64,000 nt of DNA, taken from Brachycybe producta. Taxonomy: Eukaryota; Arthropoda; Diplopoda; Playtdesmida; Andrognathidae. Shown piece after piece: positions 975 to 35,332 of the stretch. A program made the position numbers and the translations under genes. The first letter of the stretch is position 1. Each line of letters starts with the position of its first letter. The notes under the pieces were generated by a model. That model was not told the DNA's origin and ran no database searches. It saw only the letters and a program-made list of their open reading frames with translations. The stretch is from contig JAUPFP010000008.1 of assembly GCA_036925085.1 (NCBI GenBank), forward strand, positions 837,501 through 901,500, read 5' to 3'.

Positions 975-3900
975 ATGGCTTTACCCGCGGTCAGTGTTGT
1001 CCGCAATTGGACAACTGTTGATGTCGAGGATTGGTTATATCAAGTATGTATGTTATATATTTATAATGAAATTAATTCTATGTTCAATCGAATGCGTCAA
1101 AAAGACAACATAATGTAACCCCATTATAAAACCTAAATTATAATTCTATAATATTATATTTTAATAATTTGAAAATCAACATTATGCATTCAAGACCTTA
1201 AACTAGGCTAACCCTACTCTAATAAAGAGGCCTAAATATGCACCAATTTTTTTTACTTGGCATTTTGTGTATGTCATTGTCAGACAAGGAAAAAGTCATC
1301 AAAATAAGAGAATAATCAAATATATCTTATAATATATAAATGAATATCTTTTATCTTCTTTTGGGACGAGACTTCGTAAAAGATAAACAAAAAAAAAGTT
1401 AGTCAATGAAATGAAATGAAGGTAAAATAAGTTGGTTTCACTTCATTTTAATAAAACATACAGTATATAAACAGGATATGATGGCGTTGCTTTTAATTTC
1501 AGTTGAAATTTCAATTCTGTTAGTTCTTTATTAATTACATACATGTACATAGAATCATACTGACAGAAATTGACTTAAAGACACACACATAAACAGACTT
1601 AAGTGAGCTTTAATTAAGAAAATGAAATAATTTCTAGGCACATGTTAATGGAACATAATAAGAGACCCAAAATGTGGTCATATAGTTTGGAAGGAATAGG
1701 GGGAAGAAAAAAACAATGTATTATTAATCACATGAACAAAATTCATGAAAATAGATTGGATAATTTCATTGATTGGCTCCCTGTTGATAAGTAGCCCCCA
1801 TATATAAATTTTCTAACACATCCTTAAACGAATTTAACAATTAGTTGCAAGCACTGATTCAAATGGACTACTTTATATGTTAAGGGGTTAAAAGGGCCCT
1901 CAGCATGTAGTCCTATTTATTATAAAATGTGAGCTCTTTTCTGTCAAGTGTCCAATCTACATAATTATAAATACCCCCCCCCCCCTCTCTTCCCTTATTT
2001 ATATTTCCTCCCACGCTTATAAGCCTTTTTTTAAAAAAAAAGATGGCACACAAAGTTTATCACTGTTTTCTGTGCAGCTGTTTTATTTTCTCCGTTCATT
2101 AATTAAGAATAACGAATATATATATATATATTTTTAATTACATTTCTGGTAGAAATTTCTAATATAAAAAGAGGATTTTAAATGTGAACAGTTTCAGTTT
2201 GTAGGGCATAAGTTTGGAATTCATTCACTTCCTCTTTCAAACAAATCAACAGAAACGAAATTCTAAGTAAATAATAAAAAAAGTCCATTCTTCTTCCGTT
2301 TATTTGTATGTTGTAAATGTGAAGGTTCTTTTTTTTTTGTATTTATTTTGTGTTTAATTCCAAATGCACATTTTTTTATTATCATTGAATAAAAAAAATT
2401 AAGCTGGTGTGAAACAAATAAACCAAGAGATTTTTTTAACGAAGATTTCCAAAATTTTTTAATTTTACTTTACAGGTTGTAAATGTAAATCTATGCGTTT
2501 GTATTAAAAAGGAAAAATTAAAAATACATTATGCCGATTGTGCTTTAAATGTGTTATTGTGTGATTTCAGTTTTAATACAAATGTATAGCATATTTTGAA
2601 AAATAAAAGTTATTTTTTATCAGAATTTTAAAAAGTGTGGGGTTTCTTTAATTTTTTAGGTGAATCTTGAACAATGTGTGGACGCATTTCGAAAGCGAAA
2701 AATAGACGGAACGACATTTCTGGTGAGTTACAAAAATAGAAGCGCTTCAGCAAGAGAATTTAAAATAATCTACATCTTATAAAAGCCATAATGCATAAAT
2801 TATTAAAATTAAAAAAAGAACTTGATTAAAATGAAAGAAAATATAGAATATATTCAGTAATGAATTAATTATTTCTAAAGTTAAAATTAAAATTCTTAAT
2901 TAAATTTTTTATGATGGATGCGTCTAATTATTTTTTTTAAAAGTTTGACTACTTTATAAAAAAAAAAATTAGAGGCATCCATCATAAGAATTTTTAGTTT
3001 TAATTAAGAATTTTAATTTTAATTTTAGAAATAATTTAATTCATTAGTGATTAACACTGATTATATATTTTCTTTCATTTTGATCGAGCCCATTTATTTT
3101 TAAACTCTGGATATTCTGTTTATAAGGAGCAGAATTTTTAAAAAAAATTAAACTGCTTTATAAACTAGAATGGTAGCTCAATTACAATATTTGCATGCTG
3201 AAATATTTTAAAATAAGGTTTTTATGTGAGTTTGAAAATAAACCCCATAAATTAAATATATTTATATTCTCTTTTTGATAGTCATGATTACGGTTTTTGA
3301 CTCCAATTATATATATATTTAGTACAGGCTTTAAAAATGACTCAAAAAGAGTCTAAAAGTTAGCGATTTGTTAAAAAAATCTTATCCTTCTCAAGTGTGA
3401 CTATTTTATGTATTTGTGACTAATTGAAGTCAAGAATTATAATCAGCATATGCATATGACTATCAAGGTATGATCCAAAACTGAAACTTTTTATTATTTA
3501 TCACTAAAAAGTTTATTTTGTGTTGTGCACTTCTGAAACACATAATAACCAGAGATTTAGAAAATCAGTTGTTTATAAAAAAATTATTAAATAAATTCTA
3601 TTAATAATATAATTTATTCTATTACATTTAAGGCACTGACTGATGAAAGTTTTCTTTCATGGGCAGGAGAACTCAAGATAAGTCAACGAAAGTAAGTAAA
3701 TAGATTTCAATTCTATAAAATCCTATCAGACTTTGACGTTTCGCCTCGGCCCAAATATCTTTCATCTTTTTGACTATTATTAAAATCACCAAAGAAAATT
3801 ATTTATAAATAAGAAATATTTTTCAAAAAAAGTTATGGAAATTTATTAACCCATCACTATTCTGATGCATCATAATAATTATAGTTTCAGTGTATTGGGA

Positions 3901-6900
3901 TGATGAGCAAAGGGCCAGCGCACTGGCGCCTAAAAGGACCGGCACAGGCGGCCTTTGCTGCCCGTTATACAGTATATAAAAAAAAGTGAAATAAATTCTA
4001 TGCGAACACATGTGGACTGTTTGCAATGTCATACTACACCCATGAGAACATGGTGAATTTGGTTGATCTTTTAGTAGTAGACAGTGGATGGGAATGAAAA
4101 CTAAATGAATTACATGTTTGAAGTGTTATAAAAAAAAATTAATCAAATTTTTAAACCAGTGTTTTTAATTTAGAAAAAAATATAATAAATTCAGTTAAGA
4201 ATTTTGTCTAGGACATTCATCTTTCTGCTCCGTTGAGGATCTTTCTCTCTTTTTCTATCTAGAAATTTAATTGAAACTTCCCAAATGATCCTGATCACAC
4301 ACCAAAAAAAACCAGAACAGGACGAGGCTTTGATCAAAAATTCACTGTCAGATATTTTTTTTTTCATCCTCTGAGATCGTCCTATTGGTTTTAAGTTAGT
4401 TAATTTGACGGGACATCAACCAAGCGGTCTGAATCGAACCCCATGAAAACAGTTTTTTGTTTGTGTGCTTTTTTTTTTAAATAAAACTACAACAGATACT
4501 GAAAAGTTTCATGAGGCATCACTTCCGCATTGATTTTTTGTACCTTTGTAGGTTACATTATTGATGCAATAAAACTAAAACAATGCATTGCAATGGTCAA
4601 AATATTTAGGAGTGAAAGCAATGTGACAGTGACATAAACAAGTTGGACATTGAGGATCTGATTTAGAGTTACAGATCCATAATTACTTTCCTTTAAAGAA
4701 GGATTTTTATTTCTTTATTGGAGCATGTTTATTTTTGTTTTCTCTTGTTTAACCCAGTTACAAATGTGTACTCATTCAAATATTATTCTGCTTCAGAGAT
4801 GGTCACAATTGGAATATTCTACCACACAGAACCTACTTCAAATTGTAACAAAAAAAAACCATAACATGATAGTAAATTATTACATGTCACAAATAAAAAC
4901 ACATACATAAACGTGGGATTATCACACCCACGCGCAGGGCGTAAAAATACGTGAACACATCAGTTCTCAATCAATACACAATTAAATATAACTATATTTT
5001 GTTAAGAGGAAAAAATTTAGAGGTCAATATTTAGGTAAACGAATATGAAGGTTTTGAACAAATCGGGTTTAGTAAATTGCCTGAATATTATTATTACAAA
5101 TGCCCGAAGAATGTGTGTGGATGGTTAGGAAGAAGAAGGATGTTTTGTGTAGGAGGGAGGCAACCAAGTGGAGGCAACACACTGGTTTTCCTGACACACC
5201 AAGAAATCATTCAAATAGGTGCAATGTCCAGGCAGTGTGTGTGTGTGTGAAGTACTAGTGGTGCCATGGCACCACCACTAAATGAATCCCATCAACGAGT
5301 TATATTCATGCATAAATATTTAGAGATGATTAAAACATAATATTTGTACAGAATTTTGTATAACAGTAATATGGCAACATCACTGTCTGTTTATAAACTA
5401 TTTATCAGGATGTTTTGCAATATTTGTCAGCATCCTTTTTCAAAGAATTGTGTTTCCTCGTCAAAATAGACCCTTTTTGTTGGTCTCTTCTGGGGTAAAC
5501 TTATAAAGATGTTGGCCATGTGACCCACACTCAAGGAAAAAAATAAGAGAATGAATGGCAAAACAATAAAAGCCACACACTCCCTCTGTAGGTAGAGAGT
5601 TTGAGGTGGGGTGAACAAATAATTTACATTGAGATACATTCATTAATGAACCAATTTCAGTTGTATAGAAATTCTTTTTTTTTTTTTAAAGAAAATACAA
5701 AAACTAAAATAGAACTCATTTTAAAGACAAAAACATTCTGAAAAAGTTTTTCAAAATACAAAGAAATACTTCTTTGATAAATTATATTACACCTACTGTT
5801 CTAAGAATTTCATTTGATGAATTGTAAAATTGAACTTTAAAAATTCTAAAAAGAAAAAAAAAATCTTTGTTTGCTAAAATTTAGATCTAAATATGATTAA
5901 TTTATCAGATGTTTTATTTTGGTAAAATAATAACAAAAAAAAATTGTTAGATAATGTTAATTTTGGATTTGCTTGAGAAGAGTTAAGTAATTTCAATATT
6001 GTAAATGATCAGTTCAACTATTTCAAATGTCAAGATTGTCTATCAAGCGAATAACTTTAAAGAGAAGACAAAAAAATAGGTTGTGGTTTGGATAAATTTC
6101 GAACAGAATAACACTCAAATGGAATGTAATGAATGGATCACTTGGTAACTGAAACATCCACACACAAAAAAACTGTATTTAAAAATAAAATTTATGAATA
6201 TATATAAAATGATATAGTCAAAAGATGATATTGATATGTATCATACGAATATGAAATTTTAAAATATTTAAATGTAAAAATATTTTAATGTATGAAAAGT
6301 TTGACAACTTTTCAACAACTGACTTACGAATAACTTAAATTTGCAGAGTAAACGGTGGCACATTAATTATTTCTGCTATTGAAATTGTTGTTAAAAGATT
6401 TTTTTTCGTCATAAAAAAGTAAGACAACGAGAAATTAAATTTGCCAAATTAAAATAGTTTTTTTTTCTCCTTTCACTGTATATTGAAATATGCGTACAAA
6501 AAAATGAGAGGCGTGAACTTATTTATTTCCTTCAGGCTGTCCTACCTTACAATTTAATGTTTTTTTTATTTTAGGAAAAAAATTTCTTGTGTTATATCTT
6601 ATTTTTTCACATGGACACGAATATGTCGTAGGCCTAAATACAAGGATATCACAAAAAAAAACACTAAAAAGACAGGTCTACATTTTGAGGGCAAGTGACC
6701 TAAATCGAAAATAAAGATAAGCATCTATAGCAGGAGTGGGTTTTTTTAAAAAAAAAACTTCAAGTCAATTCCAAAAAAAAAAAAAATCATAAAATTTCAT
6801 TTCTCCAAACTTGTCATCTTCTATGGGTTATTAACTTACTATTGGAAATTCTCAAATATGACATTAAGCGGGGTAGAGACTCTATAGAGACGGTGAATTC

Positions 6901-9900
6901 TGACTTGTCTATCCTTTGATTTCCTTTTGTCTTTTTTTTTGCCTTTCTTAACTACCTCTTAATAATTCATTTTCCCATCATTGCAAACCATTACGATTTG
7001 AACAAATGTGTATGTTTCCATGCTCAGGATTGACCAGCCAGAATTGACCATGTGTACTCAGCTTTAGAAACATTAAATTCTAGAAAGATTGATTTACTGG
7101 ACGTCAAAATTAAACCCATATTATGATATTTGTACAATTATAATGATATGTAGATAATCAAGACTGTCTACAATTTAAAATGGACCTGGAAAATCGAATA
7201 TTGCATGTAAATTGTCATTGTTCACACCTGATGAATCCTTTGAAGGAACAATGTACTTGCAATTGTAGACTTCAAAATTTGTACATTTGCTTTAATTTTA
7301 ATTATAATTATTATCTCTGGTTAGAAGTGCTAAAACTATTGTGCAATCTTAACAAGTAATCGGTTTTTGTGCCATGAAATTTCTAAAATAGTAAAATGCA
7401 ATGTAGACAGAAATGAAGACAGTGAGGGGTGTAGGTATAGGAGGGAGTATCTTTTAAAATTAAACATCACCCTGCAACAATATGTATTACATAATGCATT
7501 CCAGGTACTTGATGATGCAGATTCTCTTTAAAGTCTGAAGACATATACATTTCATCTTTTATGTACAAGTACAGTATATACAATGTACATTATATAAAAT
7601 TGTGCATATGGTAGATGGCAAAACACAATCCTATTAAGTGTATTATACTGCAATTGTTGTTTGCTTTCTATACACTGACACACAAAGATGAATCTCTTAA
7701 GAAAGAGAGGTGCTAGGGGTGGTAAGGGAAGGTGGTGGTGGTAGTGGTGTGGGTAAGGAGGAGGGGTGAGGTGAAATTTTGAACTGAAACCAGTTTTGGC
7801 GGTTTGCTTTTGTACATACTTAACAGCAACATGCAACAAGCAGGTGGTGGTGGTGGTGATGGTGATGACGTTTACCTGGCCAGGTAACAAATAAGAGAGT
7901 TTGGTTCCATTCTCCAGTGAGCTGAGTCAGTCTTCGTAAAATAAAAAAAAATTATATTCTCTTTTCTTCTTCTGTTCAACAGTTCAACTAAAAAGAGAGA
8001 GGCTTAGCCGCTTAGTTCAGTTTTGTCTTGAAAGTGGTCGGTTATTGGGTTAGGTTAGTCGGATTTTCTCGATGCTGCTAAAAATACAACATATGAAATG
8101 TCGGTAAAAAACGGTGTGTAAAACCAGCATAAGTAATTTTCGTTAACAACTCAGCTACATTGGAATATAAATATTTGATGTATTTTTATATCTATGGGTC
8201 AACAGCATTGAAGAAGAGCTTTTCTAGATCCGTATATTTTACATCATGAAAATATAGTTAAGTTTCTTTTTGCTTCAATCTTTTTTTTTATTATTTCTTC
8301 GAAACACTGTGGAAAGTTTACTTTTGAGATATAAATAAGAAGAAAACTGCGAAGGTGAACTTGTTTTCGCGTCAGTGTCTGTCTATCTGTGTTTGTGAAC
8401 AGTTTTTTTTTCTCTTCTGAAATTTCTTGTTCGTTTGTTTCAATCATACATACAAGAATCAAAATTAGGCTAGGCTAGAATTGCAAATCCAAAGTGAAAT
8501 ATTTTTGATCAGAAATGAAATTTACTTTAAAATGTTTAAAATTATAGAAGTATGATAGTTTTTATTTCATGGATATACTCTGTATATATCGACATTTAGT
8601 GAATATGGCAAAGGAAAAATCGTGTAGTTTGTGATTATCAACACAAACATAAAAGGAGAAGTGAAGAATATCTCTCTCTCTTTATATATATATAATAAGA
8701 AGTTTGCCATTTTTTGGCGCGTAAAAGTTCTCCCATTTCCAGTTGGAAAGGAAATGAAAACAAGAAGCAACAGGAATACAAGAGAAGCCAAAAAGGAATC
8801 ATCAAGAAAGAAACTCGTTCCAAGTTTCACCACTGCAAGAAAAAAAAAACGACATTCCGATTTATAGAAATCTTTTCAATTGAATAACAATAATAATATT
8901 AATAATAATACTGTCCAAAGAAAAACCTCAAAATCTGGCTCTTTTATGTTAACTTAAAGGAGAGTTTTCTTAAAACTTCTAAAAGAAGAAAGAGATCAAA
9001 TCAAGTACAAGTGGATACTCATTTCCATATAAATGACAAAAACGACTCAAACGCCCAACGACAATGCCTTTTAGAAATGAAAAGAACGAGAAAAAAAAAA
9101 GTAATTATTAAATGACGGCAACTGTTTCGATTTTTAATCTAGAACAAATTAAAATCTTTTAAGAGAGAATTTTTTTTTTTCAAAATAAAAAAAAATTACA
9201 AGCAGTTTTCATGTGAAACGGAAAACTTATTTAGAACAAAATTATTAAAGAGAAAAGAAAAGAGAAAGAAAGAACAGAGAGAAACAAGAACCGAAATCTA
9301 TTTCGAGATGAATCCATTTTCCATGTTTTAAACGAAGTGCTTGAAAATCCTGTCATCAAGAAACTTGAGGATTTTTTTTAAACAACAAAAACAAGGCCAC
9401 AAATGCTGAAAAGATGAAGTGAGTAAAAATCGTGTTTAGAAAATATTATGCAAATGAGCACTATCTAATAAAAAGTGTGCGTCAAACTAACTTCATTAGA
9501 AGAAGAGGTCATTTATGTTGCGTGTTTATACTTTACGGCAAAGAACTTCGTTAACAACAGCAAAAATTACCAACAACAACAATCAGCTGTGATCAAATAA
9601 ACAAACTTACGTTTTACAAACCCTCAAATCGAAACTCCTTGTTTAGTTTTTACTGGAAATACTTTGGCAGTGTCCACTCCAATCCAGTCTCCATTGGAAA
9701 TACTTGTACTTTTAAAACTCCTTCACGTGTCTTTGAAGTGTCCATTACCTTGGGACCAATTCTTTACCTGAAAATACTCAGTAGTGTTCATCTAGTGTCA
9801 TGAGGTCCTTGTTATTGATACCATGCCTTCAACAGATATCATCGGTAACGGTTTTTGTAAAGCTTTTACATCTTCCAAAGACATCTGTTCCGAGACAGTG

Positions 9901-12900
9901 AACACCGCCACCACGACTACGACCACGACCACTAGCCACCAACGTACCTCAAAGAAAATTTCACAACGTCATCGAATGGCCATTATGGATATCGGCCGAA
10001 ATGGTATTGAAATGGGCAGAATACTGAAAAGGTACAAACAGAAATTTCTTTTTTTTTTATGAAATTAAGATATCTCCTTCCAGTATGAAATGCTTTCCAG
10101 TAAAACTGACAGGTTGTAAATTTTCAAAATGAGATGGGTCAAGGTGAATTGGACTTTTAATTCAAATTCTAGTTTACCTTTTAATTAAAGTTAATATACA
10201 TATAATTTTTTTTTTTTTGTGTATGAAATACAACAACAGCAATTAACAAGAAATCCAAATTGATTTTCAAACGCCACACATTTGATATTTAATCATTTAG
10301 AAGAAATCCTTCAGAATTGCAAGGTTTTTAGATTAACAACAACAACAAAAATTAAATACATATCCGGAGGTTTTTTTTTTTTCTTCTTCTTCTCCACATG
10401 TCAAAATCATTAGAGCCAATTGACATTTTGTGCGTTTAGAACAAGGACACTTAATAATGTTTGTACTTTTTAATGTGTTAAAACATTATAAACAAAACAC
10501 ACGTCCGAAACCACCTTAATAATAATTATTAATTATCAAGTTATCTAGCTTTCCGAGTGACATTCACACAATTCAGTCACCTGAATCGGAATCAATTTTA
10601 AATATTAGCATTTTTTTTTTCTTCCTTCAAAGTGCTATTTTTTAATATAGAAATTAACCCAAATCATAAGTGTTGATCACTGATGATGACTTTGATGAGA
10701 AAAATCATAAAGTGTGCAGAAGAGCAATTCATTCCATTATTCACTGCCACAAAACAATATATTCTTTTCTGATCATCAGGTGTGGTGGTGGCATTTGGAG
10801 CACACCTTATCATCAATATAGAACCACTTTTTTTTAAAAAAAAATTAAATATTCACGAAACAATGGGTCGATTACATGTTTGTCCTCATTTTAATCTTGA
10901 ATATCCGTTCAACGAACGTGAAGAGAAAAAAAACAAGATGCAACTTTTGCAAAACTGATATTTTTTTCAAATATATTTCTTCTCCCTCTTATTTCTATGA
11001 TAATAATCGATTTAAACCAATTACCGCTTAAGGTTGTATTCTTAAGGTCATTATTAATAATTTTTAAGTCAAAGCTAATGCTAAACTCATCAACTTTTAC
11101 ATAAAACCAACAACATATCAAAAGTTCATGAATTTCATACTATTTTTGACTTACAAGTGTTATCATTGCTCCGCTTAATTGATTTGTAAGTTAAAGCTAG
11201 TGCTAAACTCATCAACTTTTACATCAACTACCGGTACCTATCAAAAAGTTCATGAATTTCGTACAATCTTTAAATTATCAAGCATTAAGAACACAACCCC
11301 TTAATGATTGGTATTGGTAAGTAAAAGTTAGTGCTAAACTCATCCACTTTTACATGAATTTCATCTTATCTTTGACTTTGATGTGTTAGCAATCATTAAG
11401 AATACAACTCTTAATTGATTTGTAAGTTAAAGCTAGTGCTAAACTCATCAATCTTGACATCAACTACCGGTACCGATCAAAAAGTTCAGCAAATGTTAGT
11501 GCTAAACTCGCCAACTTTTACATGAAACTTTCTATAAACGTTGATTATTTTAGCACTAGCTTTGATTTAGAAATTATTAAGATTATACGATTGTTAAGGT
11601 CTTCTAGACTTGTCTCGTTTTGTGTGTATTTCTGTATTTTCAACGTATTTTACAATGCCATTAACCGTTATGTTTGTTAGCAAAAAAAAAAAACATAATT
11701 TTACATTGATGATAAAACTCCCTAAAGTAAAATTGCATAGAAACTGGTTATTATTATCATTATTTTATAGTAGTGTGATAAAACTTTTATTAGTTTGTGT
11801 TCCATTTCGTCAGTCTGAGTAACCGCAAAGGAGTACTATTTTTACTTATTATATTTATAAAAGTACATAACTGTCGTTCTCTACTTGATTTTGTTCTTTT
11901 TAGATCATGTGCCACTTTTTTTTGCACACATTTCGACTTAACATAACCGAATTATAGCTTCTTAAATGTTTGAATATATTCAAACAATAATACAGTACAC
12001 CATGTATTACAGGTATGAACAGTCAATATATTATGGTAAATGAAAGTTAAAATATTCATTTAAAAGTGTTTTGTAAGTATAGTCTGTAAATTAGTCATAA
12101 TATTATGTGCTTCAGGTAGAGAATTTTCATTTTTACATAATATAAATTAGTTATTAAACTTTAGTTATTACTAGGGTTCGGATTTTGATACAATATCAAT
12201 CGGAATGTTTTTCAATTTGTGGCCCAAGTGCCAATCATGAAGGAATCAATCATCATCATTATTAGAGCAAACTGCAAATATGCTTTTTTCTTGTCTGGTT
12301 TACTATATCAGTTGTCAACTAGAGTTCTAGTCTCTAACCATTTTTTTTTAATTAGAAAGAACAAGTGTTTTTTTTTTATCTAAACGAGATTGTTACTTCA
12401 CAATTGGCACTTGGGCCACAGGTTGAGAAACATTCCGGTTGATATTGCATCAAAATCCGAGCCCTAGTTATTACTTTTATTTTATCAGACATTCAAAACT
12501 GGGTTCATTTAGTATTTTTATGGTATTTTACTTTTTATAAAACCCTTTTTTTCTCCTTTAGTGTTTTTTCAAAAGTTATTCCGTGTTTTTTTTTTTAATA
12601 AAACGACTTATAGCAGTTTATAATTGAATGAATGATAAGAAAAGTGCTAAATGGTGTACAAATTGTCATTCGAAGTTGTAAATTCTCTAAATGAATTATT
12701 CCACCTTACATTAGGTTGTTCCCTTTTTTCATTATTATTATTTTAACATTCAGACTTCATGTAAAAAAAATAAAGATTAGCAAAGCATAATTATTGTTTC
12801 TTCTTGCACTTTCCAAAGTTTCCATTGTTAAAATGTGCTAATTGTTGTGGCAGTAATAAGCTGAATAAGGTATTTTTCTATAAGTAGCTCTCTCTCTCCA

Positions 12901-14112
12901 TCTACCACAGTGAGAATAATAGTAAGTGTCAAGAGAATAAAATAAAAAAAGGTATCATCATTAAGGCAAGGCAAAAGCATATTTCACATAAAAAGCATAA
13001 TTTGATTTATGACCCCTATTTGCTATGTGTAAAGTATTCTACAGTATAGACTGATGAAAAATACATTGTTTGGGCCAGATATCCAAAGCATAAAAAGAAT
13101 AAAAATCATAATTTTTTAAAATAAGCATAAAAAGCATAATTGTAAGAGAAAAGCATAAAGTAGAGCATAATTTTAAATAAAAAGCTGAAAATTCAGCATA
13201 ATTTGTCAAGAATTAAGGTTTCCTTTATTTCAAAAATTGAAACTTGATTTTTTGCTTACCTAATTTATATTCCTATATCCTATGAGGCTATGACTTTTCT
13301 GTCACCTCTAGTTCTAAAAGGGGTTATGTCACATGACCTATATAGGGGCCATTATTCTGCACATGGTGTAATGTACTAATGTTAAGTTATAAAGAAATTC
13401 AGATCCTGTTGCCATTTTCATCAAGCTAGTTAAATTTTCAGACTCATTCTGATCATTTCAAAATTTGAAAAGAGAAAGTAAATGCAGCTTTGAGTGTTAC
13501 AGTTTCCAAAAAAACAGTTTTAAATCAGAAAATGGAAAACTTTGGTGTGGATATTGTTCACATTTGGTTGACTATGAAAAAAAATCTGTAGTAGCTTTAC
13601 ATGTAAAAAGTTTTAAGCATAGCAGAGCAAAATCCAATGAAAAAGGTTTAGAACAAGTAACTATTTTTCAGACTGAAGAGAGAAAATCAAATTCAGAAAA
13701 GTACTTGGATTAGCATAGCATGGCCAATGCATTTGTATCATGTGGCATTCCACTGCATGATTAAAATGATTAATAAAAGTGTTGACTAATTGTGTTAAAA
13801 GTTGTGTTTAGACTATTTTTTTTAGAAAAGCATAAAAAGCATAATTTTTAAAACCTAAAAGAATAATATCTGAATGAAAAAAGCATAATATGCCTTGCCT
13901 TAATCATCATCATCATCATCATCCATTGTTAAGAAAGTTAACTTCTGTCTTTAAAAAAAAGTAGATTCCATTGAAAAAAAAGCACCTGTCTTAGCTAAGT
14001 AACAAAATATTCAGATATGCCTAACAACATTTATGTGTGATTTCAAACTTTGAATGATGATATTACGAAAAATTTCTATCTAGAGAAAGGACATTTTATT
14101 GTTGAACATCAC

Positions 14113-14172
<60 letters not shown>

Positions 14173-14441
14173 CATCAACATTATTAATAGTATTATTATT
14201 ATTATTAGTAGTAGTAGTAGTAGTAGTAATAGTAGTACAAGTAGTAGATTATTATTAGTATTAGTATTATCATTATTATTATTATTATTATTAATATTAT
14301 TATTATTATTATCATTATTATTAATATTAGTAGTAGTAGTAGTAGTAGTAGTATTCTTCTTCTTCTTATTATTATTATTATCATCATCATTATTATTAGT
14401 ATTAGTATTATCATTATTATTATTATTATTATTATTATTAA

Positions 14442-14487
<46 letters not shown>

Positions 14488-14498
14488 ATTATTATTAA

Positions 14499-14575
<77 letters not shown>

Positions 14576-17500: not shown

Positions 17501-20500
17501 CTGCTTTTTATTTAGACATGCATATTTTTTTATTTAAAAAATAAGTTTACCAATGTGTGTGTGTGTGTATAATTAGTTCGTGATTTTCTGCTCAAGAATG
17601 TATCTTAAAAATTATTATTATTTATCATCTACATACACAAAAAAAAAACCATAAAGACACATTCATATGTATATTATAACGGCAGAAGGTGGTCAGTAGC
17701 ACATTTCCGGTTTATAAAAAAAGTTTATATGTAGAAAAAATACATATAATATGAGAGGGTTGGTCCGAAATTAATAATCTAAACTTATGTGGATGCAAGT
17801 TAATTCTTTCAGTGACCCTTTTTTTTTTTCCTTTAAAAAAAAGGTATCAAAAGTTTGTACAAATTTAAAATTTAGATGTTATTTTAAAGTTTCCTTGTGT
17901 TCTATAATGTATAAATCACGTTTTATGTATGAAAACTAAGCAATTGTTTCTCACTTTATTCCATCTTAAATATTAGAACACCCTACCTTTAGGCTTAATA
18001 ATAATAATAATAAAAACTCACCACAACCACCAAAAATTTTACGTTATGTTATGTATATGTTACTGTCAATCTGCGGGAATCAGGCAATCTGCAAAACAAC
18101 CAACCTGCTAGTGAATCTGTAAAATTCAATATATTTTAGGTGTTGAATTTTGCAGATTCACTAGCAGATTGGTTGTTTTGTAGCTTGCCTGGGCAATCTA
18201 CAGATTGACAGTAACATAAATTTATGAATACTTTAGTAATTTCTCTCTCTCTCTCACTATTTCTTTTAACCTGACTTTCAGGAACTGGTAACACAATCCA
18301 TTGATTTGAAAGCATTGTAATGTATCAAGTGCAATGCAGAACAAATGAAAATGATACACCACCACCCCGTGTTAATTCTTGTCTGTTTTTTAATAAAAAA
18401 AACTTAAGAAAGGAAACACCTGGATGAATGAACCAGTTTAGAATTTTTTTTCTTCTTCCTCTTAATTTCTTTATGTACATATAATAAAAGTTCAACGACA
18501 ACGAAACTCATATATCAACCGTTAAAACATGGACACATTTGTTTCCAATAATCGTTTATCACAGCTGATCAAGAAAGAAGAAAAAAAAAAATCTTAAACA
18601 ATGAAATTATTGAGTAAGGACCTTTCTTTTTTTATTATTTTCAAGTATAAACTTACTGTTCGAACTTCGAAGTCGGTACTTTTTTTCTTTTCTTTGTTCA
18701 GTGATTATTATGGCTTTTTTATTTTGCCTGAAGAAGATGTTGAAAATAAGGTGGAGTTGTTAGAAAAAGAAAAAGAAAGATTTCATCTTGTTTCAGTCAT
18801 TGATATTTATTGGTCATTGACAGATGAGGAGGTCAAGCACACATCTAAATATTATTATGCATCACTTAATATACTTATATACATGTATAATGTTAAAATA
18901 AGTGTGTATAAATGGCAAATCTACCAACATAACACAAGTTATTCACTTAAAAATGTATTTTTTTAATGACCCACACACCACACGTCAGTAAGAAAAATGT
19001 ATGTTTTTTTTTGTGTCTTTGTGGTCATCACATATATGTATATTGCATGTGGAGCATGACTAACATAAATATTTCATAATTATATAAGAGATTAATTTCA
19101 AAACGTACACAGTTTTAACATTATACACACATGAAGGTAAGACTACCTATTCCCCTTGTAGAAGTCGAGCTCAAGACAACCATGAAAGGTGGAGTTTAGT
19201 ATTCCATCAAAAAAAAATGTAATAAATTTTTCATTCAGTCATTCGGTCATCAATGCATCATAAGACGAGTATAAACAACAACAAATCAAAAAGATGCGAC
19301 CTTAATTAAATATAAGTTTATATGAAATAATCATACAACTACTGTATATAACAAAAATGTGTGTATATATATATATTTTTTTGTGTGTGTAACATCTTTT
19401 TTTTTGCGGGCCAATGGATGATTAAGAAAGAAAAAAAAGTTAAAACCTCCGAAAAAGTTTTTAAAAAAAAAAAGAGAGGAAATTTTAAAGAAAAAGTTCT
19501 AAAACTTCCTGAACTTGTCATGGCTTCTTTTTTCTTTATAAATAAAATTCTAAGGGTACTAACTTATTATGTAGTAATAGTAGTAGTAGTAGTAGGGGGG
19601 AAAAACCTATTTTCACACACAAAATAAAAGTCACGGTAGCAGAACGCTATTTTTCTTTCTTTTTTTTTATAAGAAAGTGCGAAATTCCTAAGTTAAAAGG
19701 AACAAATCGGACATTTCGTGCGTTTTATTCTCAATTTTAAAATAACACACAAAATGTCGGAATTGAACAAAACTTTCCAATAAAAAAACAACAATTTTAA
19801 GTGGCAATCATATGTGTTTGTTGTACTAAGGGAAAGCAGTGAGTGAGTTGAATGGTGTCTTCCTCCTCCTCCTCCTTCTCCCTTTCCCTTTAATCCTGTT
19901 GTTTTCCCCCCTTCCAAAAAAAAAAACCTTTTTTTCTTCTTCTGAAAATGACTTCCAAACTTCCAAGAGAAAAAAAGTATTCATTTGAAAACAGAATCAA
20001 ATAAATACAAAAAAGGATGTTATTCAGACAGGCAGTTAGAAATAGGTGAAAACTTCAGTTGGCTCCGCCCTTTTTATGACGCCTTTCAACTTCTAATTGG
20101 CTGGTTATGTAGTCTGACGTTGAAAAGGGCGGAGCATGTGACGTCAGACTACATAACCAGCCAATTAGAAGTTCCCAGTCGTCATAAAAATGGGCAGAGC
20201 CAACTGAAGTTTTCACCTATTTCTAACTACCTGTGATCATTTTTAAGTCAAGTTCACGGCATTGACACCTTGGTATTTGTAACTTTTGGTTATTTAAGGA
20301 GAAATATTCTTTTTAGAATTAAATGAAAGAAATAGAAAACCTCAAAACGTGGTATTTCTTTATCCATTGGAGCTTAATACAGAAATCGTCCACAAAAAAA
20401 AAGACCACAACTAATTTCTTGTAAACTAATTACTAGTATAGTTAGTCATCTGAAAATTTTTAATAAAAATGGAAGATGATTATGAATTTATATGAAAAGT

Positions 20501-23500
20501 TGAGAACATGTCATGGCCACTTGTAAACCTTTTCAATTGTTAAAGTTTCTCCCTGTAACGTTTCATTATGATTTCCTTCAATTGTTGTTTAAATTCTTGG
20601 CCTTTATAATTTAAAAACCACACATTTTTTTTTATAAGATTGTCAGTTTACTTGGTTATAACTTTTATAAGTTTATTTTTTTTTTCTTATGAGAAAGTTT
20701 TTTTTTTGTAAAATTAATTTTGTTATTTTCATATTTGAATTTATTTCAGACAAAGATTTTGTAGTTTAAAGACAAAAGCCAAGGGGAGTCCCACATAATG
20801 GACATTTAATTTTAACAACAACTGAAAGAAGAAGAAAAAAAAATCTATTAGTTTGTTCTTGTTGTAAATGATGCCAAAAAAGAAATGGCGGAAGTTCACT
20901 ATTTGCTAAGAAACGTTGGCTAAACAGCCAAATGTTTAGACTTACTTGTGTCCTACTATACACACAATATATTGAAGAAACCAAACAACTTCACCTCTAC
21001 ATTCCATTTGTTTGGATTTTTTTTTTAGAATTTAAGACTTATCTCCCACGGAGTTTAAAAGTATCATGATGATGATGGTGGTCCATTAAGTTTATTTTTA
21101 AAACTAGTGTTTTTTTTTTGGAAATTATAACAAGAAAATCTCATATTTATGACAACTTACTACAATAAGTTTAGAAGGAAACACAATGGGTACAGGATGT
21201 GCTATTCTATGTTGTATACCAAGGTTTGTTGTTGTGATTTTTCTGGTGGTTGGTGGTGGTTCATGAATAAATTTTGTTCAGGGAATGTTTCACAAAATGG
21301 ATGACAGTCCTATTTATTTAAGAAACAATATTAATGAAAAAAAAAACTGTGTAAAGTTTTTTTCAGAAACTTGGACTATTGTAGGTGTGATAGGCATTAG
21401 CACTGATTGCACTTCATAGAATACAATTAACGCCTTGTTTCTATTGTGGGGTGAAAATTTGAACTTTTGAGAATTTTTCAACTGGTGAAAAATTGAACAA
21501 ACGTGGCCCCCACCTATTCACTATAATTAGGCAAAGGCCACGTTTGTTAAATGTTTCACCAGTTGAAAAATTTTCAAAAAGTTCAAATTTTCACTCCAAT
21601 GGAAACAAGGCATAACAATCTGTCACAAACATTTGAAAATATCAATTTTCACCAAAAAAATTTTCTCCTAATGGAAATGTGTTGAATATAATAGGCAACT
21701 ATTCTAGTTTTTAACGAATTTTAAATGTTTTTCTGAAGTTGCTTCCTGGTGACCATAGTTACCAACAAAGTAAAATGTAGCCTAGATTTAGCATTACAAA
21801 TAACTACATGCTACTGCAAACATGTATCTCTAATCAACTAACGGAAACGGAAGTTAAGACTGATAAATAACAACCACGAGAGTTCATAACCAACCTTATC
21901 CCTTCCATAGGCTGAAATTCAGTGTTTTCTTAAGTGTTGTAAATGTACTCATACAAGAAATGATTTCAGGTGGAGTGCGGATTATTAACATTTTAGAAAA
22001 TTACTATGTATTTATTTTAATGTGTTAGATCGGTCCCATGGTCCTCCCCACTTTCAGTTCGTTTATCTGTTGACTAATTCTTATGTATGCCAGCTCGCTG
22101 AGCTCGCTTTAAACCAAAATAACAACAACAGGCATCTGTAGACAGCTTCAGTATTTCTTTAGATCCGCCCTTTTATGAGCGTCAGATCAAATATCAACCA
22201 ATTAGAAATAAAAAGGGCAGGGCATGTGACATCAGACCCAGTAACAAACCAATTAGAAATTGATGACGCTCCATAAAAGTGTGGAGCCAAAGAAATTCTG
22301 AAGCTGTCTACAGATGACTGTCTCCAACATTATTAGCTCGAAAATGGACAAGCAGTAAGAAAACGGTCAGAACTTCCATTGGCTCCGCCCTCATTATGAC
22401 GACCAGCAACTTTCTAATTGGCTGGTTATGTAGTCTGACGTTGAAAAGGGGCGGAGCATGTGACGTCAAACTTCATAACCAGCCAATTAAAAGTTGCCTG
22501 TCGTCATAACAAGGGCGGAGCCAACTGAAGTTCTGACCGATTTCTAACTGCCTGTGAAAATGGTTCTAGTTCAGATTCAGCAATGACTTTGAGAGTCAGC
22601 AATTAAAATGTAGGCAAAGTGGGTCCTATCAAAATTATATGTTAGTAAAGAATAATACAGGTGAGTTAGGTGGTTACACGAACATGGCGAACAACAAAAA
22701 TAGTTAAAGGTGATTCGGGAAAACATTGGCCTATTTACTGTTCTACTAATATCTAATGAAATATTTATTTTGAATAAACATATCTGAATGTTATTATTTG
22801 CAATTCAGATATATTTATAATAATAATAATTTAGGCTAGTATTTTAAATTAAAAGCTATATGAAGGGGGGAACTGATATGTCGTGTGTTTTTCTTGTTAC
22901 CTTGACCATGACAAAAGTTTTTTTTTTGGTTGAGAATAATAAAAAGCTGTAAAATTTCCATTCTTTTATTCACACCGTTTGTTTCACAGAAACACACGCA
23001 GAAAAAGAAAAAAAAAAACAGTTTGAATTAATGTTTTCAACCAAAACATTAGGTTCGTGGCCTCTCCATCATCACATTGTGCAAATATATACTGTAATAC
23101 TATATTTTAACAAACATAAAAAAATATAATAACCTGCAATTTCAAGAGTTGAGTTGAAATATAATTTTCAAAGTAAAAAAAACCCCTTACAGGTGGGCTA
23201 AAATTCAGAAATATGAACTCTTTAAATTATTCTTAAATGAAACATTATGCGTGTTAAAGTTAGACTTTTAGATTTGAATTAAAATGAAATTATAATTCAA
23301 GCTTTTTTATTTAATTAATTTTTTTAGAATTCAGAACGAAAAAAAAAATGTCTGTAAAATGAAAAAAATTATAAATGACAAAAATAAAATGAATTTATCA
23401 TTTTGAAACTTATAATTTTTTACACAAAAGATTTATTATCACAGGTTAATATCGTTGACAAAAAAAAAGAATGGACATTCTAGCCTTTTATTAATAATAC

Positions 23501-26500
23501 TAGTGGGGTAACCCGTCATAAATGACGGGAGCCAAATTCACAGGCAATTGTGCACAGCATTAGAATTTATTTTCCTCCGCCCTTTTATGACGTCAGACCA
23601 AGTAACAAACCCAATTAGAAACTGATGACGTTCATAAAAGGGCGGAGCAAAAGAAATTCTAATGCTGGGCACAATTGCCCGTGATAAACTGTAGTTTAAT
23701 TTTGCTACTATTATCCCCTCCCCTTTTTATATTTGAAAGAGAAAATGAGTTTTTCATTTTCTCTGGTGTGCGCATGCGCGTCGTTTGTTCCTTTTTTACT
23801 CCTTTCATTTCAATTTCAGTCACCCGACTCACCCCCTCCCCTTTTTTCTCCCTCCACGTTTCTCTCTCCCCCTCTACACTTTATAAACCTTTTCCCCTTT
23901 CCAATTTAATATTATGGGGTTCTTGGATGGGGAGTGTGCAACATATAGTTGACCTTGAGAAAAAAGCGGTTCATTTATTTAAATTTATATAAATTCCGAC
24001 TACACACACACACACAGACCTGGCTTAATATATATATATATATAATTGTGAAATGGCAACAAACGTTTTCAATGTCATCTTAAATATTATAATTTACAAA
24101 AAAAATATACATTTTAGTAGAAGAAATTTTCTAATCTTTCAAAGAAATAATGTTTTATTTATGAAGGAGAAAAACCCACTTATAAATTAAATGAAACTTT
24201 AGACCTGACTCTTGAGTTTCAGTTTTAAGTTTTTTCAAATATCTCTACAATAATTCAGAAGGGTGTTTTGTTTCTTTCTACAAAATCACACACCCTTCTC
24301 AATTAAGTGTCAAAAATTTGGAGTAAAAAAAAAAAGCAAACTTCAGTAGGCTTCCATTTATTAGGTGTTTTTTTCTCTCCTGCACTTATGGTCGAACCAA
24401 TATGGAGGGTCGTTCATGGCAAAATGTCCCAGATATATCTATACATTGGATACCAATAATTCCCATATTTATAATCAACGATTCAATACTGTATATGTTT
24501 TTTTCTTTCATAATTTCTCCGTCATTTTGGAGTTGACACGTCAGGCAGGACAGCCGGTCGTAAAACACATTTTGCCAAATCCCACTTGTATGTCGCATCT
24601 TTCATCATCATCATTTGACCGACCCCGCTCAGTACGGAACGTGGTCCAGGGAAAGAAGAAGAAGAATTGAAATATACTGTAGATATGCACAATTTAATTA
24701 TGAATAGTCATAATTAAATTTGTAAATATCCATAACTGAATTGTGAATATCGATAATTGAATTATGGATAGACAAAATTCGGCAATTTCGCCATGAACAG
24801 AATTGCATACATGTATATAGTAGTCACGAATGGTTCGCCCACAAGTGCAGAAAAGAAGAAGAAAAAAACACGCCTTATTATAAGCCTACTGCAGTTATAT
24901 CTTCCAATCGGATCAACCTTAAAAAGTTATAACATCCGTACAAATTTCTTTTAAAAAAATATCCTTCTATTGGATAAACTATATTGAGCACAAAGTTATA
25001 AAGAAAGACAATTGCATGGGACTTTTTTTTTTGTATGTTTCTTTTTAAAGTTTGACTGAATAAAGTTCAGTATCGGATATGACACTTTCTTTATTTGGAA
25101 AACATTTTTGTTTGATCTTGGAATAATAATAAGTTGGTGTTTCCAATGAAGGAAAGCGGAATGACATTTTGACTTTTAATGGATTTCTTGACCGAATATG
25201 TTTAGTCAAGTGTGATTTTGTTTGCATTGCGTGATTAATTATCAATTGGAGTGAAACGTTTCATTTTTCAATGGATCGTCGATTGCCAAATAACGTGGCC
25301 AATCTGTAATTTATATTATATACCTCATGTTGTTGCTTATTTGTGTGTGTATTGTTGTTGTGAACTGAATCAAATGAATGCTTCTTCTATCATGATATTT
25401 AACTCCATACAGTTACTTAATTTGTATGTTTTTATTATTTTTATAGACAAATCACAAGGTATTTAAATGAATGTCGAAATAGAGACTCCAGTAATCAAGG
25501 CATCACTTCAGCGTAAGTGACGAAAAAGGTCTTATTTATCAATTTTCTTTCAATTCAGTTCATTTCCGGATAATGTTTTTTTTTTTTAAAAAAAAGAAAG
25601 AAATAAAAGAGTGAGTTGGATCCTGAATCAGGGCCGTCTTTAAGTCTTTTGAGGCCCCTGGCACAAGATTTATTTGAGGCCCCCAACCATGCCTTACAAA
25701 TAAACTCATTTTTCCCCCCCCAAGGAACCAGTGTTCTATATATAAAAAGTATTGATGATTCCATGATTTCCATTGTATATATTGGAACAGGACTTATGAA
25801 GTAAATCACATAAGTGAATAGGCCTATTTTTTAAAATAGTAAAATGTTTTTGATGTCGGATAAATTGAAATTAAAGATTTAAAAATACAGAAAATAGTGA
25901 CAATTAACTGACTGAGGCCCTAGTTTAGACGGAGGCCCTGGGTCAGGGCCCAGTTGCCCCCCCCCATTAAGACGGCACTGTCCTGAATAGAAATCTAGTC
26001 CAGTTAATCTAATAGTAAATACTAAATACGATTTTCTGGAAGGATTTTCCATTAGTAAAGGTGAATACCCAAAACAAAAACCAGAGATGTTTTTAATCAA
26101 CAGCTGATTTTCGAACTTTTGATTATTCTGTGTTTCAGAAGTAACATTAATAAGAAACTGAAAGTGTGTTAAAAACTAGAACGGGTAGCCGAATCACTTA
26201 GTAGTATATCATATTGATATATATCTTTCAAAATAAACTATCGTTTACTTAAAGTTGGATCATTTTCAAATTGACATAAAAAGCTTAATGTAAAAAAAAC
26301 ATCAATAGTCTGAAATACCCTTTAAGTAACTTGAGTTACCCTTCTAGTTTCTAAAACATTTTCAAATCTCTTTTAATTTCGCTTCTGAATGACAAAATAA
26401 TCAAGATTTCAAGGGTCGTTTCTACAACTTTAAAATTAACTGAAGGGATTTTTAAATATTTTCTATCAATATGAATACAAAATCCGTCTATTGTTTTTTT

Positions 26501-29500
26501 TAAAAAAATGACAATTTCTAATTAAAAACAATGCTTCCATTGTTTTTGGACCCTATTTTTTTCGCTTTACAGTTTTAAAGTGGTTCACATATAAATTAGC
26601 TAACAAAGAAATTTACATAAACGAACGTAAACTTTTTTTCAAAAACAAAATTACAAACCAAAAAAAAAAGGATGTTTAAAAACTAGACTGTTAAGTGAAG
26701 TTGCTAAACTAATTTTCATGCTAATAATATTTTCTAAATTTTTTTGCTTAGAAAAAAGTTTACATTCACTTAATACCCTCTCCTCATACATCTCAAATTG
26801 ACAGTTGAGGGCATCTTAAGAAACCAGAAGTTGTTTTACACAATGTAACTGAATAATAATGAATTGGTAAATAATAATAATTAAACTTTCATAAAATCGT
26901 CCCTCCCGCCCGCCCGCCGTCGTTATGAAGAATCAACTTTATAGGATGTTATTATTAGGCCAATTACCTTGTACCCTACTGAATTAAAACGATATGACAC
27001 CTGTAATGTTCACCTGGTAGCAACATTTTTTTTACCTTAGTCGTGGGTCAGATGACCCCGTGAATTAAACAGGTGTTGTTGCATCGTAACCATTTTTCTT
27101 ATATCACATTGACTCAACCTCAGAAATTACCTTCCCCCCCCCCCCTTTCTAACATCAACCCTCCTATTTTATATTTTTAATGTGTAATTTTTTTTTTACA
27201 AAAAAGCCTATAGCTTGAAGCCAAACGTTCACCTTAAACACCCTGTAGTAACTTTTTTAAGCAAATGTTACTTCAAAGAACTTGCTAGCCTACTACCTTT
27301 CTTTATATAAGTTTCTAGTCTCGTACAAACATAAAATGTGTTTAGTAAATTTTCCTATTGAAATGTTTAGAAGTTCAGAACAATTGCTTAACACCAAAAA
27401 AGTATCTGGTAGGCCTACAGTGTAGACCTAATTGTAAACTTCCCATCGAAACTTTGCTGAAAAGTATAGTGTGGTTTTTTACGTGGTTCACATTAGAGAT
27501 CTGCGTTTTTAAAAAAACCCAGCCCACTAAGCCCATAAGGAATAGTAAATTCCAAGAGGTCACCCGAACCCATGAAGTCCAACAGGTCTATGAAGCCCAC
27601 AAAGCACAATTTGGCGTTTTTTTTTATAAATTTCCAACAAAAGCTCAGCGCAGCACATGGACATTAATATAGGTCTCTATAGATCACACCAGGTTGGTTT
27701 AAATACAGCAGAGCGTCGATAATCCGGACTAATTAGGGCACCGGATTATCGATTTGTCCGGATTTTCGAACGTATACAAAAAATCACCACTTCTGTATGA
27801 GGATAGAAAGGATAGTTAATAAAACTCATCGTTAGACTAGAAACATCATTTTCACTACATTTTAAACCAAAAACATACGCAAATATTTTATAAATAAAAT
27901 CAGAAATATGTATTAATTAAAAAAAAGTCCGTACTTTTTTTTTGTTGGCTTAATTTCTTCTGTGTCCGGATATCTAACGCTCTGTGTTTTTGACGTCCGG
28001 ATAATCGACGCTCTACTTATACTGTAATTTTACTTTAATTGTATGATTGAAAAAGTCAGACCTATAGTCATGGATTTATTGCAAATCAATATATTTTCTC
28101 TATTTATACCAAAAAGTCCTATCTTATTTTTTTTTAGTCATTTTGTGAAAATTTTTTTGTAAAAACCAAACTTTCGTTTGGTGAAAATAGGGTGATACCC
28201 TAATAGTTAGTGAACCAAATTCTAATTTCTTAACTACTTAACTAAAAAACCATACAATTTTTTTTTGTATAATTTCTGTAACGTTGTGAAATCACTTCAA
28301 AATTTTCTTTGTTTGTTTTATCTTTTTACTTATTTTGAAAATTAATATATATATTAAAAAAAAGAAATCATTTCACTAATTAATACAAAGAGGCCAAGGT
28401 CTGTCTCTTTATGTCTTGTAGTTTTTCTTTTAAATTCTGAAAGCACTTAAATATTCTGCCAGATCAGAAAGAGAATAACAACGTAAAAAAAAAAGATCCC
28501 ATCTTAGTCTGGCATCTTCTGACCTCCAATTTCACCCACACAACTTCCCAAACAAGAACAAAATATATTAAATCTCATCATTAAGATGTGATGTGTTGTG
28601 TGTGTCACAAAAAAAAAATACAGACATAAAATGTATTGAATTGAAATAAAATTGTTTTTTTTCTTCTTCTTCTGAAATTGTAAATTTTGATTGTAAATAC
28701 ATTTGTTTGTAATTTTGTTTTTTCAAATTGACACAGCTTGAAATTAAGAAAAAAGTCATCTACGGAACCACCTCCAGTGCCTCAACCAGATTACACAGGT
28801 GAGTAATTTAGTACGGTAAAACAACAACAAGTACGTGGCTGAATAAAGTCTCGTATATCCTGTACTTTTACCATGTATTTCGGTTTGTTCGAGCATTGTT
28901 CGTTTTCCGTATATTTTAATCAATGCGACAAAACGGGAGAGAGAAAAAATGAACCAAATTAAACACAAAAAAATAGTTAGCATGTCAAGGACTACATTGA
29001 CGTGACTAAATCCGGAATATTCTTTCATTAAAACAAAAAAAAACACACTTAATAACGCAACACCCGCCAACGAGCGAACAATTTCTAACGTATATATATA
29101 ATTAAATTAAATTATTATTCACAATTTTGCCTGTTGAACGAATTAGTATTTTCCTGTAATTAAACCTTCCTCACGTAAACCTTTATCTCCCCCCCCCCCT
29201 AAACTCACATGTCAAAAATATAACAAAATCTAATTCGGAATAAATTCATAATTTGATTTTGTTTGTGTACAGATAGCATGGTAGATGACGATTCATATGA
29301 TGAAGGATGGGACACGGAATTCGAAGAAAACTCGGTAAGTCACTGTCAATCACAGTAATCACAACGTTTAAAGGTAATTCGGGTTTAAATATCAATCATT
29401 TTTGTTGTTATTTTATCAGGACGACGAAGAGCCAACCCGATGTGAACCAAAATATCAACGTTCTTACGAGGACCTTGCATCGAACTCTCGAGGTGAGGTG

Positions 29501-34435: not shown

Positions 34436-35332
34436 CTTGATATTAGTAGAGTGTTTATATTTTTCAAGTTGTAACAACTGCAAAGGAAACCAGTGACTCG
34501 GTCAAATAATTTATATTTTGACTCGACAACAGTCTCTGCTCTCGAAGTCTCGACATTAAACCGAAGAGCTACTCCGATCGAGAGAGACAATTGTAGTGTA
34601 AATTTTACCGTCTCAAAGAAATGATTCTTATATTTTTGTAAATAATTTCTTATATTGTTCATTAGATGTAACAAAATTTATGTTTAAAAAAAATTTAAAA
34701 TAGCTCAATTATTATTTTGTGTTTTAAAACAAATGTGCCACCAAATAGATTTGAGACACAATTACTAAACTTCAGAAACGTTGCTTTAAAATAAAGCTAA
34801 GCTAAAAACATAACCTTAACAAAATTTTATATGGCAATAGCAAATCTATGGAGAAATTTTAAGTTTAGCTTTGTCTTAAGTTTTGCTTTGCCTTCAACAA
34901 TGTTTTAGAAAAAAACGACTGAACGAAAAGAATATTAAATACTACTAACAAGTGTTCAATATTCTGCACGACAGACAACAGAAGTTAAGAGTTAACCTCC
35001 TTGTTTTAATTCATAGATTTAGTTCTCTTGAGTAACCTCGGAGATTTTTTTAACCTAGAGATCAAACTGAGAGTATAATTTATAAATGAATTTACTTTTT
35101 TTTTAAGATTTCTTCAAATAAATTTAATATTAAAGAACTTTAAAAAGGAGACATTTTTTTTCATTTCGTTTTCTTTTAAGTACAAACCCGTCGCTCATTC
35201 GAACAATTAAGAAGATGACTGAGATACAACGAGAACAAATAATTTACAATCGATGTGCAGGTATCGCAGCGTTTTCTGCTTTCTGTACACACAACCTTTT
35301 ACAAAACGTTTAAAACAAACAAAAAAGAGTTG
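34436..35332. other. Intergenic gap between two convergent genes, with poly(A) signals
   Basis: No coding sequence. AATAAA at 34790-34795 and 35117-35122 could end the adaptor transcript. On the opposite strand ATTAAA (reading 35128 to 35123) could end the MFSD10 transcript, so the two 3' ends may overlap by a few hundred bases. The rest is AT-rich. Confidence 0.45.

Follow-up and report, generated by a model that had tools for sequence, protein, structure and literature searches.

Can one gene supply both of the N-termini that vertebrates hold on two different adaptor proteins? Vertebrate SLP-76 (LCP2) joins an N-terminal SAM domain, a tyrosine- and proline-rich middle and a C-terminal SH2 domain in one chain. 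BLNK/SLP-65, encoded by a separate vertebrate gene, has no SAM domain; its basic N-terminus runs into K.LK..PP.VP..DY, followed by an acidic, tyrosine-bearing part, a proline-rich part and SH2. We asked this question of a 64,000-nucleotide stretch of the Brachycybe producta genome (contig JAUPFP010000008.1, positions 837,501 to 901,500; hereafter the window), which holds a single complete adaptor gene on the plus strand (975-34435). Judging from the sequence, we think it probable that a separate exon deep inside this gene is a real first exon, and that it gives rise to a SAM-less, BLNK-like isoform beside the SAM form.

The SAM form has 21 exons. Exon boundaries were picked by eye, and all 20 introns begin with GT and end with AG. 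The parts of the gene are as follows.

975 to 1043, plus strand: exon 1 of the SAM isoform, with its ATG start (MALPAVSVVRNWTTVDVEDWLYQ); an in-frame stop lies upstream at 957; Pfam SAM_2.
2660 to 2722, plus strand: SAM exon 2 (reading frame, Pfam).
3633 to 3691, plus strand: SAM exon 3, ending in phase 2, donor GTAAGT (reading frame, Pfam).
9823 to 10031, plus strand: putative alternative first exon with coding sequence, made up of 69 full codons and 2 further nucleotides, ending in phase 2, its last 30 or so codons BLNK-like (open reading frame, alignment; one genomic place).
28737 to 28798, plus strand: first shared exon (LKLRKKSSTEPPPVPQPDYT), which completes the codons of both starts.
29273 to 33862, plus strand: 14 shared exons for the acidic, tyrosine-bearing, proline-rich middle (frame closes; motif list), at 29273-29334, 29420-29492, 29622-29671, 30190-30255, 30432-30474, 30559-30664, 30739-30874, 30954-31101, 31183-31229, 32897-32930, 33040-33242, 33340-33508, 33591-33671 and 33759-33862.
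33930 to 34007, 34079 to 34231 and 34316 to 34435, plus strand: three shared exons for the SH2 domain and the stop (PF00017; match in PDB).

The least certain boundary is that of exon 33040-33242, whose donor is poor (-0.74). The reading frame of the SAM form closes across its 21 exons to give 641 residues, and that of the alternative exon joined to the 18 shared ones closes to give 647.

The two starts meet the shared body in the same phase. The three SAM exons sum to 191 nucleotides and end in phase 2 (..AA|). The alternative exon is 209 nucleotides long from its own ATG, has an in-frame stop upstream at 9793, lies inside the 25-kilobase (kb) intron 3 (3692-28736), and also ends in phase 2 (..AG|gtacaa). 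The exon at 28737 then completes AA|C to asparagine in the SAM form and AG|C to serine in the alternative form (..GRILK-S-LKLRKK..). An earlier note on this DNA had proposed both phase-2 ends and their common fit to exon 28737; recomputed, its coordinates and phases agree for the two starts. It gave the final residue of the alternative exon as arginine, and this has to be corrected to the junction serine.

The domains at either end of the SAM form are clear. Pfam finds SAM_2 at residues 9-62 (E 8.8e-8; 32.6 bits against a cut-off of 20.5), SAM_1 (E 1.5e-6; 28.9 bits against a cut-off of 23) and SH2 (PF00017) at residues 533-614 (E 2.8e-11). Among 73 PDB sequences the top match is BLNK's SH2 domain (2eo6, E 3e-10), followed by NCK1 (1.8e-8) and PLCG1 (PLC-gamma-1; 6.6e-8); no LCP2 chain is found among the best 60 of the 73. 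Compared with assumed sequences of the human SH2 domains, the domain scores 160 (32%) with LCP2, 140 (30%) with BLNK and 119 (30%) with CLNK. The middle region carries YEVP at 278, YELP at 335 and several proline motifs; YEPPP is not found among the 14 tyrosines listed. By its SH2 domain, tyrosines and prolines, the locus is an adaptor gene of the SLP-76/BLNK/CLNK family.

How BLNK-like is the second N-terminus? As reference we used an assumed sequence of residues 1-38 of human BLNK. As the earlier note had remarked, the shared exon LKLRKKSSTEPPPVPQPDY (LKLRKK..PPPVPQPDY) resembles the BLNK stretch KIKKLKVKAPPSVPRRDY. This shared exon sets the register of an anchored alignment, in which the C-terminal 32 residues encoded by the alternative exon are compared with the reference. 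The exon scores 27 with standard gap penalties (11/1) and 41 with soft ones (6/1). Shuffles of its own residues match these scores in 0.5% and 0 of 1000 cases, respectively, and a shuffled BLNK reference does so in 6 and 0 of 2000. The end of the SAM exon shows no such likeness (48% and 62% in the same shuffle test). We also collected 982 pseudo-exons, that is, stop-free 32-codon stretches before phase-2 GTs on both strands of the window, leaving out the exon's own neighborhood. None attains either score (maxima 20 and 29). The alignment that the earlier note had called for, run against the assumed human N-terminus, places the alternative exon above all 982. In the alternative form, the net charge of residues 40-76 is +10. 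That the second N-terminus is BLNK-like is supported statistically, at least when the shared exon fixes the alignment.

Several observations weigh against this reading or limit it. The reference letters are assumed. The assumed BLNK has 456 residues and agrees at all 13 residues named in the available parts of two papers, five tyrosines in PMC7016142 and eight variant sites in PMC9205732; only P10 of these lies inside 1-38, so that the others vouch for the length and not for the letters. Four strings of the BLNK N-terminus were sought in print and no paper was found, and the assumed residues 1-100 match no PDB entry at E ≤1. The alignment was also run without the anchor, in six variants per gap setting; P then ranges over 0.02-0.075 for standard gaps and over 0.0005-0.005 for soft ones. 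The helical moment of residues 40-76 is not above that of shuffles in a test for an amphipathic helix (P 0.22). Finally, intron 1 of human BLNK lies after c.47, in phase 2 at codon 16, according to the accessible text of PMC9205732. The junction in our gene aligns near BLNK codon 38-39, about 22 residues further downstream, and the two do not coincide. A strict literature query returned no paper on a human BLNK exon boundary near c.113-117 (codon ~38). Because human intron 1 lies elsewhere, a simple exon-for-exon homology with BLNK is weakened.

One could argue that the exon is a real alternative first exon that merely drops the SAM domain, that its likeness to BLNK reflects convergence of basic N-termini, and that vertebrate BLNK lost its SAM domain independently. 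Loss of a domain through an alternative first exon is common. Given a distance that is likely that between arthropods and vertebrates, the retention of a stretch of about 30 residues would also be surprising, and both the weaker unanchored alignment and the position of the known human intron suit convergence. It has little to say about an anchored alignment that no pseudo-exon and hardly any shuffle of the exon can match. We consider convergence unlikely, although it deserves to be taken seriously. The claim that one gene holds both N-termini survives in part: the SAM domain, the two phase-compatible starts and the anchored likeness speak for it; the unanchored likeness is weaker, and the human intron does not line up.

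It is also conceivable that, in an intron this long, the frame at 9823-10031 is open by chance and that the gene makes the SAM form only. Intron 3 contains 14 reading frames that run from an ATG to a phase-2 donor scoring at least as high as that of the exon, and 9823-10031 alone reaches 150 nucleotides. This length is, on its own, only mildly unusual: 17 of 100 introns simulated with a second-order Markov model hold at least one candidate of 209 nucleotides or more (mean 0.19). The donor, AAG|GTACAA, is mediocre as well. Just 3 of the gene's 20 donors fall below its score of 5.39, which is equaled or exceeded by 84 of the 1314 GTs in intron 3. The composition raises further doubt. GC content (the share of G plus C) at the three codon positions is 0.34/0.53/0.45 in the exon against 0.53/0.45/0.39 in the gene and would suit frame +1, which contains two stops and has a codon score of 0.228 against 0.097 for the ATG frame.

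Other measures favor coding. With the SAM exons kept out of the training set, the codon score of the alternative exon (0.123) equals that of the SAM exons (0.106). None of 1016 stop-free intervals of the intron reach this value; if stops are ignored, 130 of 16,270 do. GC content at 9800-9999 is 0.45, the highest of 39 intervals between 8000 and 12000, where those that do not overlap it range from 0.24 to 0.375. Pfam is silent here: in the N-terminal 140 residues of the alternative form, its four matches all fall short of their cut-offs (best E 0.0064). What sets the exon apart from chance frames is how closely it resembles the start of BLNK at the fixed junction; none of the 982 pseudo-exons does as well. 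A chance reading frame seems improbable to us.

Repeats occur in introns 2 and 3. A cluster of direct repeats of 46-131 nucleotides with inverted ends lies at 11052-11580, some 1 kb past the alternative exon. Further along intron 3, a long TAT-type microsatellite (154 copies; 14113-14573) creates spurious reading frames of repeated residues. Intron 2 holds nested inverted repeats at 2811-3098, with arms up to 97% complementary, which resemble a short hairpin element.

If the alternative exon is a first exon, there should be a promoter and a leader upstream of 9823. Two features are candidates.

8747 to 9634, plus strand: possible 5′ untranslated part of the predicted alternative transcript; strongest segment of A-over-T excess (AT skew) in intron 3.
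8683 to 8689, plus strand: TATA-like word 5′ of the A-rich segment, at most a candidate core promoter.

The segment 8747-9634 is found at three of four penalties, and 3, 0 and 1 of 200 block shuffles match it. At the lowest penalty it grows to 8442-9634, which 14 of 200 block shuffles match. The three 1-kb intervals with the highest AT skew (of 96) begin at 8501, 8751 and 9001. The strongest A-over-T segment of the whole window (35301-38169) overlies a gene on the minus strand, which leaves AT skew only suggestive of sense exons. As a mark of a transcribed leader, the A-excess is no more than a hint. The TATA-like word is one of five between 7900 and 9800. A long leader would, moreover, need to tolerate many upstream starts, another point against our interpretation: there are 26 ATGs at 7982-9822, 15 of them after 8747.

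Transcription could instead start further upstream, in which case the exon would be internal or longer, its 5′ edge set by an acceptor, for instance the AG at 7981-7982; the same protein would be possible. This acceptor scores 8.6, a good value; 18 of 1230 AGs in the intron score at least 8, a rate at which good acceptors arise by chance, and no upstream partner exon was identified. We would be rather surprised to see such an internal exon confirmed. The idea that the exon is instead a repeat or belongs to a second gene copy was set aside, given the single place found for it in the genome by a DNA search that skips simple repeats and very common words.

We therefore return to a gene with an alternative first exon and ask how it might work. 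The first 25 kb would hold two start regions. From the distal one, the 641-residue SAM protein would be made. An internal start in intron 3, upstream of 9823, would yield the 647-residue protein, with a basic BLNK-like N-terminus in place of the SAM domain. Each start would be joined in phase 2 to exon 28737, and the two proteins would have the tyrosine-bearing, proline-rich and SH2 parts in common. The exons, their phases and the SAM and SH2 domains are read directly from the DNA; transcription, splicing, lipid binding and ancestry of the alternative form are what we infer from them. The SAM form may oligomerize or bind partners through its SAM domain. For the internal form, SLP-65 offers an analogy. 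According to the available sections of PMC7016142, no granules form when SLP65 lacks residues 1-45, its N-terminal lipid-binding part, the protein's localization tracks Ca2+ signaling, and an N-BAR domain can replace the N-terminal part. By this analogy the SAM-less isoform is possibly lipid-binding and could attach to membranes or vesicles via its basic stretch. The choice of promoter would then decide where the same scaffold is assembled.

The genome as a whole is consistent with a gene that predates the vertebrate paralogues. We searched the 295-Mb assembly (442 contigs), scoring best candidates only. The whole SAM form gave 21 matches; 19 are this locus, and the other two are general SH2 exons elsewhere with 28-32% identity. 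All four matches to the alternative N-terminus with its continuation are this locus, and the DNA at 9500-10060 is found in a single place. There is apparently one such adaptor gene in the genome. About 36 kb beyond it lies a gene of the CPEB2/3/4 type (L032 6087-7618, minus strand), whose CPEB-type RRM stretch is identical to CPEB4 at 60 of 61 residues, far above CPEB1. In humans, CPEB2 and CLNK presumably lie at 4p15-16, CPEB3 at 10q23 and LCP2 at 5q35. CPEB4 is at 5q35.2 (PMC4504610) and BLNK at 10q24.1 (PMC9205732), as stated in the accessible parts of these papers. If these positions hold, the linkage between CPEB and SLP genes was kept three times, and our gene would therefore be the counterpart of a single ancestor of LCP2, BLNK and CLNK. 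Single copy and CPEB neighbor both fit one ancestor that existed before the duplications.

Our tentative proposal goes one step further. An early bilaterian SLP gene may already have carried separate promoters for two scaffolds, the first SAM-headed, the second membrane-binding and BLNK-headed; after the vertebrate genome duplications LCP2 would have kept the first and BLNK the second. Such a partition of two starts between vertebrate paralogues is plausible; we regard the full scenario as possible but doubtful.

Other genes surround the adaptor gene. Directly upstream lies a gene that we take to be KANSL3-like (L030 4116-8764, minus strand). The downstream part of the window contains an MFSD10-like gene (E 1.7e-18), PUF60, and a gene that we assume to be PYROXD2-like, for which NCBIfam and Pfam give weak related matches only. 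An open reading frame at 47641-48108 is presumably like the N-terminus of a mariner-type transposase; Pfam gives only a sub-threshold HTH_32.

The mitochondrial contig was also inspected. COX1 has an intact frame of 511 residues under genetic codes 5, 9 and 13 and not under code 2; code 5 yields residues that we take to be usual for protostomes. With transfer RNAs (tRNAs) called by ARAGORN and protein genes named by eye, the order is cox1-cox2-K-D-..-cox3-G-nad3-A-R-N-S1-E, without a Leu tRNA between cox1 and cox2, presumably the order of arthropods outside the insect-crustacean group. Rfam gives no match on this contig. Copies of COX1, one nearly full length, also occur in the large contigs C1 and C17 (L023, L024-L027), as nuclear insertions or assembly joins.

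Has such an arrangement been described before? Amphioxus bbslp76 is SAM-headed like our SAM form and has an extra WW domain of its own, as far as the available text of PMC5431462 goes; the words isoform, splic- and exon occur zero times in its main text. A BLNK-like protein of a sea star (XP_038070561) is also SAM-headed, and its two named isoforms differ by a 38-residue segment (PMC11593052, accessible portion). For neither relative do the available portions of these two papers describe a SAM-less alternative start. Sea-squirt slp76 is reported to lack the SAM domain, like our alternative isoform, but as a state of the protein and not as an alternative start (PMC5431462, same portion). Alternative first exons in general are illustrated by CD36, where separate first exons lead into one common body (PMC1475603, in the part available). 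Unlike in CD36-type cases, the alternatives in our gene resemble the N-termini of two different vertebrate paralogues. In the open-licence literature, to the extent that its texts were available, we came across no gene described as having both starts. Our claim that the two-start arrangement is new is a modest one, and we regard the arrangement itself as a credible prediction from the sequence.

T- and B-cell receptor signaling depends centrally on the scaffolds SLP-76 and BLNK, whose N-termini differ. If the tentative proposal of an early gene with two promoters is true, the T- and B-cell versions of this scaffold would descend from isoforms that predate lymphocytes. If both N-termini stem from one invertebrate gene, this would be a clear case of isoforms divided between paralogues. 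The job of each start could then be studied in an animal without lymphocytes.

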